From contig JAENZE010000006.1 in NCBI GenBank assembly GCA_016841425.1, positions 70,362 to 134,361 on the forward strand: a stretch of 64,000 nt of DNA, in the 5' to 3' direction. A model generated the notes under the pieces. That model was not told the DNA's origin. It saw only the letters and a list, made by a program, of their open reading frames with translations, and ran no database searches. The position numbers were made by a program, and so were the translations under genes. Source of the stretch: Syntrophomonas sp. GTDB lineage: Bacteria > Bacillota > Syntrophomonadia > Syntrophomonadales > Syntrophomonadaceae. Numbering within the stretch: the first letter of the stretch is position 1; every line of letters begins with the position of its first letter. This document shows, piece after piece, positions 26,413-33,373 of this stretch.

Positions 26413-26565
26413 AAAAGAAAAAACACCCCACCGAGCCGTGGTCGCCGTGGGTTTAACCTGCATTGCAGGTGGGTGCCTTCCCGCATAATTAATGGGTCCC
26501 TAAAAGAAGGGCATACAGGCCTTACGCGGAGTTCAGGCTCCCTAAGTGTTGGTGTTGGAAAAACT
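26413..26565 (-). ncRNA. ssrS: 6S RNA (SsrS)
   Basis: This regulatory RNA mimics an open promoter and sequesters sigma-A RNA polymerase. On the minus strand the ends pair as AACACC (near 26551-26556 region) with GGTGTT-type sequence (26421-26428), followed by a T-rich tail. Inside are the conserved stretches GGGAGCCTGAACTCCGCG and GCGGGAAGGCACCCACCTGC with AAGGCCTGTATGCCC between them, as in clostridial 6S RNAs. It occupies most of the 346-bp gap between aspS and tcdA. Bacillus 6S-1 (bsrA) lies between the same two genes, which is strong synteny support. The exact 5' end is approximate and may extend further toward 26615. Confidence 0.85.
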
Positions 26566-26693
26566 TGACCGGCTTCTCACGTACACAGCAGGGAATCTCT
26601 TTCATTTTCCTGTGGTTAGCAAAAATATACCACAGAATTGCCTTTTCAGCAAGAATGCTGGGCTGTTATTATCATCCAGCAGATAGATTTTTA

Positions 26694-29791: not shown

Positions 29792-31276
29792 CTAATTTAA
29801 GGCCCAGAGCTTGTCAACTTTGCGTTTTATCAGCTTTTCTATTGATTCGCAGTAACTTGCCGGGTCTTTAGGATTATAGGATGAATTAAGTTTCCAGTCC
29901 GAGGTATTGATGAACTTGCTGGCTGCACCTCCACCCATACCGATGATAGTCTGTCTTTCTTCCATCATCTGGATATTGTAAAGGCATTCCTGCCCCGGAA
30001 GGGAATAACCGGTATTTTCCATACCCGCTTTCATATATTTCTGCCGATACATGTAATAAGGCAGATAACCAGCTTGTCGTAACTGGCTGGCAAAGAACTC
30101 TACACCTTTTTGCACTTCACTTACCCGATCGTCAATTTCATCCTTATCTTCCACAGCAGCCATTTTTGAACCTCTTTTAAGGGATAAGGTATGAACAGTG
30201 ACGTTTTCCGGGCCTAATTCGAGAATCTTATCTGCTGTGCTCATGTTTTCCGAAATTGTTTCTCCTGGTAATCCCACTATTAAATCCATATTAATTTGTT
30301 TAATACCTGCTTCTCTAACCCATTCGATCGAACGCACCACTCCTTTCTGATCATGATTCCTCCCTATAAGTTTTAAAGTAGAATCATTCATGCTTTGAGG
30401 ATTAACACAGATCCGGTTTACTCCAGCTTGTTTCAAGATTTTCAGTTTATCTGGATTAAGGGTATCCGGTCTGCCTGCCTCTACCGTAATCTCTTGAGTC
30501 CTATGAGTAATGTACCTGTAATTCAACAGATCCATCATCTCCTCCAGGTCCTTTGCAGAGAGCACGGTAGGGGTACCTCCACCGATATATATAGACTGTA
30601 TTGAGATATCCTGCTGCTGCAGACAGTCTGCTATCTGGTTCATCTCGGTATACAAAGCTTGCAAAAATGACTTTATTTCTGAATCGTAATCTTTTAGCAA
30701 CATACCGGGAAAGGAACAATAATAACATCGACTGGGACAGAAAGGGATGCCAATATATATACTCACCATCTTCTTGGCCTTTTCTGGAGTCAGGAGAAAT
30801 GGCCGGTTGTTCTGGGCTACTTCCAATAGCAAAGCTGTCTTTGACTCCTGCAGCAAATAATCGTCCTGTAAAATATTAGCTATTTCTTTCTCTTGGAATC
30901 CGAAATCCATGAGGCGATGAACCAGCTTCACCGGCCTCATACCGGTTAGAAGTCCGTAAGCATTGATATTCCTATCCATATGCTGGCATAGCAATTGATA
31001 AGTGAACCTACGGGCATACCATCTGGCCTCATTACTGGGATTTGTTCCCTGACTCCTGAACTGGTATTCTTGTTTCAAAACGGTATTGCCCTCCGGAGAA
31101 AATACGGCTCCCCGTATCACGGTTGATTCCTCCCTCGCTTCCATCTTAATTTGAATGCTGGTCGCATGGTGCCCTCCTTTTTCCTTGATTATCTGACATC
31201 CTGGAAAGGCTAAACGAACTAGTTCATGCAGGGAATAATAAAGCTGTTGTGGTTCAAAATCACCATGAATTAACAT
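29792..31276 (-). CDS. hemZ: Radical SAM coproporphyrinogen dehydrogenase family protein HemZ
   Basis: This family is annotated as oxygen-independent coproporphyrinogen III dehydrogenase acting in haem synthesis. The 494-aa protein has an N-terminal extension of about 165 residues. The radical SAM core follows, with CPSRCYYCSF (CxxxCxxC, about 178-186), IYIGGGTPTVLS and the SAM-binding LIVGLPGE. A HemN-like C-terminal domain has YYMYRQKYMKAGMENTGYS and GMGGGAASKF. The ATG lies inside the end of pheA (17-bp overlap), suggesting coupled translation. A haem-synthesis role fits the cytochrome b subunit encoded at 51.4 kb. True activity of HemZ-type proteins is less certain than that of HemN. Confidence 0.88.
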   Translation of the reverse strand: MLIHGDFEPQQLYYSLHELVRLAFPGCQIIKEKGGHHATSIQIKMEAREESTVIRGAVFSPEGNTVLKQEYQFRSQGTNPSNEARWYARRFTYQLLCQHMDRNINAYGLLTGMRPVKLVHRLMDFGFQEKEIANILQDDYLLQESKTALLLEVAQNNRPFLLTPEKAKKMVSIYIGIPFCPSRCYYCSFPGMLLKDYDSEIKSFLQALYTEMNQIADCLQQQDISIQSIYIGGGTPTVLSAKDLEEMMDLLNYRYITHRTQEITVEAGRPDTLNPDKLKILKQAGVNRICVNPQSMNDSTLKLIGRNHDQKGVVRSIEWVREAGIKQINMDLIVGLPGETISENMSTADKILELGPENVTVHTLSLKRGSKMAAVEDKDEIDDRVSEVQKGVEFFASQLRQAGYLPYYMYRQKYMKAGMENTGYSLPGQECLYNIQMMEERQTIIGMGGGAASKFINTSDWKLNSSYNPKDPASYCESIEKLIKRKVDKLWALN

Positions 31277-32096
31277 CAGTCATCTCCTTCCTTCTGTTAT
31301 ATGAACCCAGGTACTTCAAGCTGTTACAGTAGAGCTGCAGTTCATCCAGGGCCTGGTTCAGGTTATGATCATTACCTCTCACTTCGACTTCAATATAGAA
31401 ACAAAAACTGCCCTGTCTGCTTCTATCGGGTTTGGATTCAATCTTATTAAGATTTAGGTTTCTCAGGGCAAATATCTCCAACGCTTTATATAATGATCCC
31501 GGCACATCAGGAAGTGAACATATCAAACTTGCCTTCTGCCCATCATTTGAAGACCCTCCATTTTTAGTAACATGAACAAAGCGAGTAGTATTATCTTGAT
31601 TTTGTATATCTTCTTGTATTATTTCCAATCCATAAATAGCTGCCGCCCGCAAATTACCTATTGCTGCTGCCTTTTTGCTTTCAGTGCCGATTATCTGTAA
31701 TGCCCTGGTGGTGCTGCTGGTTATTTCAGTTCGAACCCCCTTTAAGCTGCTATCGATAAAATCACCGCACTGCATCAGAGCAGTTGGTTGAGATATGATT
31801 AGTTCTATGTCTTCCAGCTGATATTTCCGAGCCGCAATCAGATGCTGACGGATAGGTATTACTATTTCCCCCTTAATACTTACCGGGTATTCCTGTAAGC
31901 AATTGATACATATATCAATGGACCCGGCCTGAGAATTGTCTATGGGAACCAGAACATTCTCAACTTCTCCTCCGGCCAGCATTCGGAACAACTCTGGTAT
32001 AGTAGAGGCTGCGGAAACCTCCACATCATCTCCCCAGTACAGATGAGCGGCTTCTTCACTAAAAGTTCCGGTCGGCCCTAATACTGCACATAACAT
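31260..32096 (-). CDS. pheA: Prephenate dehydratase
   Basis: This enzyme converts prephenate to phenylpyruvate in phenylalanine synthesis. The 278-aa monofunctional protein has a PDT domain (LGPTGTFSEEAA, VPIDNSQAGSI, and the catalytic NTTRFVHV near 187-194). A C-terminal ACT domain follows (KASLICSLPDVPGSLYKALEIFALRNLNLNKIESKP) for phenylalanine feedback inhibition. Its ATG overlaps the aroF stop by one base (TAATG), and its 3' end overlaps hemZ. It lies under the Phe T-box, fitting the pathway. Confidence 0.97.
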   Translation of the reverse strand: MLCAVLGPTGTFSEEAAHLYWGDDVEVSAASTIPELFRMLAGGEVENVLVPIDNSQAGSIDICINCLQEYPVSIKGEIVIPIRQHLIAARKYQLEDIELIISQPTALMQCGDFIDSSLKGVRTEITSSTTRALQIIGTESKKAAAIGNLRAAAIYGLEIIQEDIQNQDNTTRFVHVTKNGGSSNDGQKASLICSLPDVPGSLYKALEIFALRNLNLNKIESKPDRSRQGSFCFYIEVEVRGNDHNLNQALDELQLYCNSLKYLGSYNRRKEMTDVNSW

Positions 32097-32938
32097 TACT
32101 TAACCCTCCTTCCGCAGGCACGTGCGATAGGTTCAATCTCCCGCATCAGACGGCTAAATCCCTTTGGAGTAAGGGACTGCGGTCCATCAGAAAGAGCCTT
32201 TTCTGGATTAGGATGTACCTCGATCATAAGACCGTCTGCCCCGGCTGCTATAGCTGCTTTTGACATAGGAGTAATAAGGCTTCTAATCCCGGTTCCATGA
32301 CTGGGGTCTACCATAACCGGCAGATGAGATAACTCTTTGACTAGTGCAACCGCTGCCAAATCTACCGTATTTCGCGTCCAGGTCTCAGAAGAACGTATAC
32401 CCCTCTCACACATAATCACCCGGTAGTTGCCTCCAGCCATGACATATTCTGCGGCCAGCAGCCATTCTTCTATGGTAGCGGATAGACCTCTTTTTAGGAC
32501 CACCGGTTTATCTAACCGGCCCAGTTTCTTGAGCAGAGAATAATTATACATGTTGCGGGCTCCTACCTGCAGGATATCTGAATACTCGGCTACCAATCCA
32601 ATATCTTCACTATCCATGACTTCAGTCACTACCGGCATATTCATATCCTGCCCTACTCGGGCCAGGATCTTAAGCCCTTCCTCCCCATATCCTTGAAAAC
32701 TGTATGGTGAAGTCCGGGGTTTATAAGCGCCTCCCCGCAGCATGGAAGCACCAGAGGCTCTGACTTTGAAGGCTGTCTCTTTAAGAATGTCTTCGCTTTC
32801 TATGGCGCACGGTCCGGCTACCACAAGTGTTTTCTCCCCGCCAATAACACAGCCTTTTACCTCAAATTGTGTATTTTCCGCCTGCTGCATACGCGAGACG
32901 AGTAGTTGATTACCTTCTTTAGCCAATAAGTTTTTCAT
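32096..32938 (-). CDS. aroF: 3-deoxy-7-phosphoheptulonate (DAHP) synthase, AroF type
   Basis: This catalyses the first step of the shikimate pathway, condensing PEP and erythrose 4-phosphate. The 280-aa protein belongs to the short KDO8P-synthase-like class. It has the core motifs [52 protein letters not shown] and [11 protein letters not shown], with no chorismate mutase domain fused. The ATG at 32938 is 8 nt after GGAGG; an in-frame TTG two codons earlier is too close to the site. It is first in the operon aroF-pheA-hemZ, downstream of two T-box modules. Confidence 0.96.
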
Positions 32939-32961
32939 TAACAATACCTCCTTAAAAATAC

Positions 32962-32993
32962 AAAAAACCTCTCATCCGTCTAGGGACGAGAGG
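32962..32993 (-). terminator. T-box-controlled terminator 2
   Basis: CCTCTCGTCCC...GATGAGAGG hairpin followed by TTTTTTG on the minus strand, directly before aroF. It is the mutually exclusive partner of the second T-box antiterminator. Confidence 0.85.
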
Positions 32994-33077
32994 CACTAAA
33001 ACTTCCCGCGGTACCACCCTGATTGGCATAGATACCCACTTGAATAAGATACGGGACTATCCCTCAAATCTAATCTA
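32994..33077 (-). promoter_or_regulatory. Second T-box module lacking Stem I
   Basis: The T-box sequence AGGGTGGTACCGCGGG lies at 33005-33020 and is followed by terminator 2. Only about 60 nt separate it from terminator 1, too little for a Stem I with a specifier loop. Those 60 nt resemble the Stem III region of the first T-box (GGGATA...CCCGTATCTTATTCAAG versus GGATAAATCCTGTATCTTTTCTAAG). It therefore looks like a duplicated antiterminator/terminator unit without its own codon recognition. Confidence 0.8.
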
Positions 33078-33082
33078 TAAAA

Positions 33083-33330
33083 CAAAAAACTTCTCTATCC
33101 TCCATGGGACGAGAAGCGTTTAGCTGCCCGCGGTACCACCCAAATTGCCATTGGCCCGCTTAGAAAAGATACAGGATTTATCCGATATCCCCTCTCTTTT
33201 AACGGTAAGAGTTCCGCCACGACCTACTTGCTAGTGTTTCAGCCGGGTGCTCCAGAGTGAACTTCAATATGCTTCCTTATGGAGATGCTTACAGCCGATG
33301 ACATCTCTTCTCTGAATAATTTCACATACC
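33083..33330 (-). promoter_or_regulatory. T-box leader specific for tRNA-Phe (aroF-pheA operon)
   Basis: This leader RNA senses uncharged tRNA. On the minus strand Stem I closes with CAGAG (33310-33314) and CTCTG (33253-33257). Just inside its 3' side the specifier loop reads GAAGTTCA, giving the codon TTC (33259-33261), that is phenylalanine. The T-box GGGTGGTACCGCGGG follows at 33127-33141, and terminator 1 after that. Uncharged tRNA-Phe should stabilise the antiterminator and allow transcription of DAHP synthase and prephenate dehydratase, which matches the specifier. The codon assignment comes from aligning the loop by eye with known T-boxes. Confidence 0.88.
33084..33116 (-). terminator. 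T-box-controlled terminator 1
   Basis: CTTCTCGTCCC...GATAGAGAAG hairpin followed by TTTTTTGTTTT on the minus strand, paired with the complete upstream T-box leader. Confidence 0.85.
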
Positions 33331-33373
33331 TACTTTACTCGTTCATCACATTTAATATATTAGATTAAAGATT

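Follow-up and report, generated by a model that had tools for sequence, protein, structure and literature searches.

The abstract of Vitreschak et al. 2008 (RNA 14:717) reportedly names a structural class of T-boxes with duplicated terminator-antiterminator elements. Partially tandem ("partially double") T-boxes have one Stem I and two antiterminator-terminator units, and a 2020 review stated their modes of action to be unknown (PMC7583486). For double (fully tandem) T-boxes, with an own Stem I and specifier in each unit, cooperative action and a sharper response have been suggested (PMC9413887). In the literature searched, we found no description of pairing between the linkers of partially tandem T-boxes or of a mechanism for them; the original description of 2008 lies outside that comparison. 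A 2025 survey of contiguous riboswitches covers tandem T-boxes, in passages that mention no such pairing (PMC12452182).

In this study, we closely examined a leader within a 64,000-nucleotide stretch of a Syntrophomonas genome (here named the window), where an earlier note had described a Phe T-box followed by a second module that has no Stem I. The locus, with one Stem I and two antiterminator-terminator units, has the layout of a partially tandem T-box, and module 2 lacks the Stem I and specifier of a fully tandem one. Our main reading, to which we assign a probability of roughly 0.6, is that one decoding body serves two complete discriminator-terminator switches in turn and is re-docked between them by strand exchange.

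The covariance model RF00230 of Rfam gave one match in the leader (33355-33102, minus strand, 103.2 bits with a gathering threshold of 93), which covers the full-length model (positions 1-219). All parts of this model, i.e., Stem I with the specifier, Stem II, IIA/B and the discriminator, are present in module 1 (Table 1), and the match and the folds confirm the complete Phe T-box with TTC specifier, antiterminator and terminator that had been noted before. Hairpin X is located between the IIA/B pseudoknot and Stem III of this module. The genes under control, aroF-pheA-hemZ-hisS, were identified by NF006421, NF008865, TIGR03994 and TIGR00442, all above cut-off. The window also harbors a 6S RNA (26421-26597, minus strand, 87.3 bits).

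Table 1. Features of the leader and the first genes downstream of it (window coordinates).
Feature	Position	Strand	Basis
Stem I, module 1 (sole decoding stem)	33249..33349	-	Rfam RF00230 alignment
Specifier TTC (Phe), context GAAG-TTC-ACTCTGGAGC	33259..33261	-	Sequence; motif in 31/31 order-set leaders
Stem II and Stem IIA/B pseudoknot region, module 1 (boundaries approximate)	33193..33248	-	Rfam alignment, sequence
Module-1 linker: hairpin X and 5' strand of long-range helix	33160..33192	-	Fold -8.0 kcal/mol; pair counts
Hairpin X, arm X5' GATATCGG	33189-33182	-	Sequence, fold
Hairpin X, arm X3' CCTGTATC	33175-33168	-	Sequence, fold
Purine string AAGCG, Stem III, AA of module 1	33143..33162	-	Sequence; RRRxG-StemIII-AA motif in 31/31 of order set
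T-box 1/antiterminator 1	33102..33142	-	Core 33140-33129, bulge UGGUACC; Rfam alignment, pattern, fold (-12.4 kcal/mol)
Terminator 1	33084..33116	-	T6 at 33089-33084; fold -14.6 kcal/mol
Inter-module linker V, 3' strand of long-range helix	33045..33078	-	Duplex with 33192-33160, -23.8 kcal/mol; covariation in relatives
CCCGTATC within linker V	33055-33048	-	Sequence
Purine string AAGTG, Stem III, AA of module 2 (AAGTG...CCAA)	33022..33042	-	Sequence; motif in 28/31 of order set, shuffled rate 0.07
T-box 2/antiterminator 2	32981..33021	-	Core 33018-33007; pattern, fold (-11.6 kcal/mol)
Terminator 2 with T-run	32961..32994	-	Fold -19.0 kcal/mol; terminator scan
aroF, 3-deoxy-7-phosphoheptulonate synthase (DAHP synthase), first controlled gene	32096..32938	-	NCBIfam above cut-off
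pheA (followed by hemZ, hisS)	31260-32096	-	NCBIfam above cut-off

The T-box core GGTGGTACCGCG occurs twice on the minus strand. The location given in the earlier note holds; it had left the strand unstated, and the boxes themselves are not identical, the first reading TGGGTGGTACCGCGG and the second AGGGTGGTACCGCGG. Between the T6 of terminator 1 and the start of the second box lie 62 nt, close to the 60 nt estimated before. This space leaves no room for a Stem I, and module 2 therefore has none, as had been proposed: no own Stem I with a specifier was found in the 62 nt or in the homologues, where the earlier note had said that one would count against its description, nor does module 2 have any Rfam match of its own. 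Module 2 contains an RRRxG-StemIII-AA purine string, a 7-nt bulge starting with UGGU, and helices A1/A2 that compete with the terminator, parts which make up the discriminator in the T-box literature (PMC7583486). Since the purine string is present together with the T-box, module 2 represents a whole discriminator. The noted resemblance of the space between the copies to the Stem III region of the first holds as well. It keeps a near-invariant CCCGTATC and lacks the conserved 5' half found in hairpin X. The second switch, which has its own terminator with a T-run, indeed looks functional. The UGGU bulge is found in both modules, and the genome's own tRNA-Phe(GAA), located by Rfam and ARAGORN, carries A73, the partner of the bulge U.

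Furthermore, we analyzed the distribution of this layout using about 150 related leaders as the basis for comparison. Two cores 80-140 nt apart were found with an exact pattern in 33 of the 63 genomes of the order, covering 19 of 29 genera; the reversed pattern gave 0 matches in the same 63 genomes. Twelve more aroF upstream regions were taken from genomes without an exact match or with a match at another locus, and 11 of them show two modules, the remaining one (L263) ending at a contig end. These regions have a longer gap (L262 and L264), a variant second core (L267) or, in the others, a variant first core. Nine more genomes with a looser core or spacing bring the total to at least 42 of 63, and the double structure is thus present in related genomes, where the earlier note had recommended looking for it. 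The first core is off consensus in L265, L266, L268 and L269-L273 (e.g., GGTGGTATAGCG, GGTGGTATTGCG or GGTGGTTGCGCG), and the second stays canonical.

The layout also occurs in the class to which the L057 genome belongs, here termed Desulfotomaculia from its named members (39 of 113 genomes), in a sample of Lactobacillaceae (53 of 350 genomes), and scattered in other Bacillota; raw pattern matches in high-GC genomes, which are often due to chance, were filtered by terminator features. A Phe specifier motif is present in all 31 order-set and all 29 Desulfotomaculia leaders. The specifier of the Lactobacillaceae leaders is CAC (His) where readable (30/59), and at least one other family therefore shares the layout; fixed specifier motifs give no call for 29/59 Lactobacillaceae leaders and for 20/32 of the rest. 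The RRRxG-StemIII-AA motif of module 2 was found in 28/31 leaders of the order and 26/29 of the Desulfotomaculia (shuffled, 0.07-0.09), and in only 24/59 of the Lactobacillaceae (shuffled, 0.17).

Some further observations concern related T-boxes. In the Lactobacillaceae (L044-L258), the two modules often differ in the bulge base N of GGTGGN, which is free to vary; in the Phe class it is always T. C73 of tRNA-His usually pairs with G-1, and this pairing might be the cause of the free bulge base if the Lactobacillaceae leaders are His T-boxes. In L013, L014 and L029, the gene that follows a partially tandem Phe T-box is hemZ-like and not aroF; in two of these three genomes, aroF has a tandem T-box as well. 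The window has hemZ in third position in its aroF operon. Elsewhere in the genome under study, outside the window, a complete tRNA-Ala(GGC) gene with encoded CCA is embedded in the Stem III of a full T-box leader (L006 1786-1501, minus strand; contig C25 344198-344483; 115.9 bits). This leader has an apparent Leu specifier, CTC, and the sequence downstream reads like the start of leuS. This same tRNA was found inside a T-box match in all seven relatives with a region of sufficient length.

Linker V shows complementarity to the module-1 linker, which directly precedes Stem III and otherwise folds into the local hairpin X. Duplex predictions pair V with X5', the X loop and X3' jointly, over about 15-24 bp in the better cases. 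As this X-V pairing was first spotted in loci read by eye, it was tested with swaps, controls, pair counts and contrasts. RNAduplex shuffle z-scores are poor for long segments (mean of -1.0 in the order), and the tests therefore relied on a local pairing score with limited gaps, together with swaps and control regions. Matched linkers exceeded linkers swapped within the clade in the order (27.9 versus 24.0), in the Lactobacillaceae (33.8 versus 22.1) and in the Desulfotomaculia, which were gathered after the idea had formed (30.1 versus 25.9); the mixed rest gave 23.5 for matched and 20.2 for swapped pairs. None of 20,000 permutations reached the true mean in any of these sets. The X-V score beat that of a control region behind terminator 2 in 24 of 25 held-out Lactobacillaceae leaders and in 27 of 29 held-out Desulfotomaculia leaders, some of the latter being close to leaders examined earlier. 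Against a control region upstream of X, the X-V score was the higher one in only 19 of 29 Desulfotomaculia leaders.

Pairs were then counted on the MAFFT alignments A1, A2 and A3 and compared with shuffled and slid versions, on sequences that share ancestry and with structures derived from the same sequences. In A1, 91.1% of the cells of the long-range helix are paired (at most 47% when slid), with a covariation score of 0.212 (at most 0.114 when slid). The 17 double-changed cells of this alignment are matched by 16 at slide +1, and its weight therefore rests on the paired fraction and the covariation score. A2 has 62 double-changed cells, compared to 22 in shuffled and at most 20 in slid versions, and in A3 84% of the cells are paired, compared to at most 52%. 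When sister pairs were contrasted so that every lineage counted a single time, compensated double changes numbered 8, 11 and 3; in the slid versions the means were about 2, 2 and 0.2. Taken by itself, the hairpin X loop covaries with V (0, 0 and 7 of 20,000 permutations in A1, A2 and A3, respectively). Clear cases are GAGTACG/CGTACTC in L201 versus GAGTATG/CATACTC in L203, GGTATCGAA/TTCGTACC in L074, and a long perfect X-V match in L246. The helix is also retained in L262 and L264, where an insert of about 75-110 nt separates the modules; in L262, from the same genus as the window, it is predicted at -34.9 kcal/mol and is far stronger than in the window.

Hairpin X itself is 99.5% paired in A1 and shares columns 15-22 with the long-range helix. 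Since they share these strands, the two are mutually exclusive, and the leaders thus contain two conserved, exclusive helices with one strand in common, as expected for strand exchange. The spacer from helix to core measures 26-37 nt in module 1 (from X3') and 26-32 nt in module 2 (from the helix end). We also considered whether the complementarity is a by-product of a duplicated inverted repeat. This origin was rejected because the bases of the hairpin X loop covary with V; furthermore, V is nearer to the reverse complement of the module-1 linker than to the linker itself and has little self-structure in most leaders.

For the class, the comparative data make the predicted long-range helix well supported. 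In the window itself, energy calculations favor it only marginally (-23.8 kcal/mol for the X-V duplex, against -14.4 kcal/mol when folded locally), ensemble folds yield 0.8 to 7.3 expected long-range pairs depending on the segment boundaries, and 12 of 14 helix pairs aligned in A1 can form. Energy differences in the Desulfotomaculia are small (mean of -1.6). In about one-third of the order set and in the majority of leaders from beyond the three main clades, no dominant helix emerges in ensemble folds. Beyond these clades the helix is often absent, and partially tandem T-boxes may therefore be more than one thing.

From the anatomy, the conservation, the covarying complementarity and the equal spacers, we infer cotranscriptional exchange, a hand-off of the tRNA and a regulatory gain. 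RNA polymerase would make module 1 first, and its body (Stem I, Stem II and IIA/B) would catch tRNA-Phe via TTC, the free 3' ACCA end of which would stabilize antiterminator 1. Linker V is made only after terminator 1. Once polymerase has passed this point, the new linker V would invade hairpin X, and the long-range helix would replace it, looping out the first discriminator on its far end and bringing the second Stem III-antiterminator to the distance from the body that the first had. Because the helix-to-core spacers are equal, module 2 would then stand to the decoding body as module 1 had stood before. Such a geometry is what presenting the same bound tRNA to a second sensor needs, and we suppose that this presentation takes place. 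The same body, still carrying its tRNA or a replacement, would be read again before terminator 2. The net effect would be two serial aminoacylation checks, with which the second termination check offered by the earlier note is compatible and probably identical. With two serial checks, the leakages of the terminators would multiply, and full expression would need uncharged tRNA-Phe at both. In its widest form, the proposal is that two aminoacylation sensors take turns in using one tRNA-decoding domain, which a conserved exchange of strands between the linkers would re-dock, together with its tRNA, from discriminator 1 to 2. The arrangement would be shared by the Phe T-boxes of the order and of the Desulfotomaculia and by the separate family of the Lactobacillaceae (His where read); we put this proposal at slightly better than even odds.

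Other readings have to be weighed against this one. The covariation that backs the helix would also suit a second check without hand-off, in which the tRNA stays on antiterminator 1, terminator 2 is a leakage trap, and the helix organizes the linker or blocks refolding of module 1. Terminator 2 is indeed the stronger of the two in the window; a plain trap, however, needs neither a whole conserved discriminator with purine string and UGGN bulge nor a helix-to-discriminator spacer matched across modules, and we consider this reading rather unlikely. Alternatively, the 3' end of the tRNA could reach the second discriminator by flexibility alone, across an unstructured linker in which V forms a short local hairpin unpaired with X. 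V in the window and in close relatives can fold in this way (GGGATAGTCCC, -6.4 kcal/mol), and ensemble folds of L021, L022 and L023 contain few long-range pairs. This is unlikely given that V is almost without local structure in most Lactobacillaceae leaders, that V and X, loop included, covary across clades, and that the same-genus relative spans its long insert with a strong helix.

It is quite improbable that module 2 is autonomous and recruits any uncharged tRNA with discriminator A via UGGU, leaving Stem I unused: its bulge and antiterminator are intact, but it has no decoding or elbow-binding element, cognate tRNA recognition is in general supplied by Stems I and II (PMC7583486), and there would be no need for the conserved link to module 1. 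The resemblance of module 2 to module 1 from CCCGTATC onward is what a decaying or neutral partial duplication would leave behind. This idea, also raised in the earlier note, is scarcely credible and, as far as sequence can tell, refuted by the conserved layout in at least 42/63 genomes; in several relatives the variant core is the first and the canonical one the second, and V is closer to the reverse complement of X than to a copy of it. Among the three ideas put forward there, the handing on of the tRNA is the best supported, and the covarying helix between the linkers offers it a concrete route.

The long-range helix turns the mode of action of partially tandem T-boxes into a testable question. 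If the strand-exchange reading is true, a single ligand-binding domain serves an RNA sensor in two consecutive decisions, and a genetic switch could in this simple way be made sharper and less leaky without a second aptamer.

Compared to the canonical single Phe T-box (RF00230), module 1 has every part that was tested; the locus differs from it by a second discriminator and terminator behind the first and by a linker complementary to module 1. Like fully tandem T-boxes, it offers two terminator decisions in series; unlike there, the second unit has neither Stem I nor specifier. As in cotranscriptional strand-exchange riboswitches (e.g., the purine riboswitch, PMC9756952), a later-made strand would invade an earlier helix and pass on a decision; the exchange there feeds the terminator decision of a single platform, whereas here it would move an entire ligand-binding body over to a second expression platform. 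With one Stem I and two terminator-antiterminator units, the locus is a member of the known class of partially tandem T-boxes, and the helix between its modules is a newly recognized structural link that gives this class a testable mechanism.
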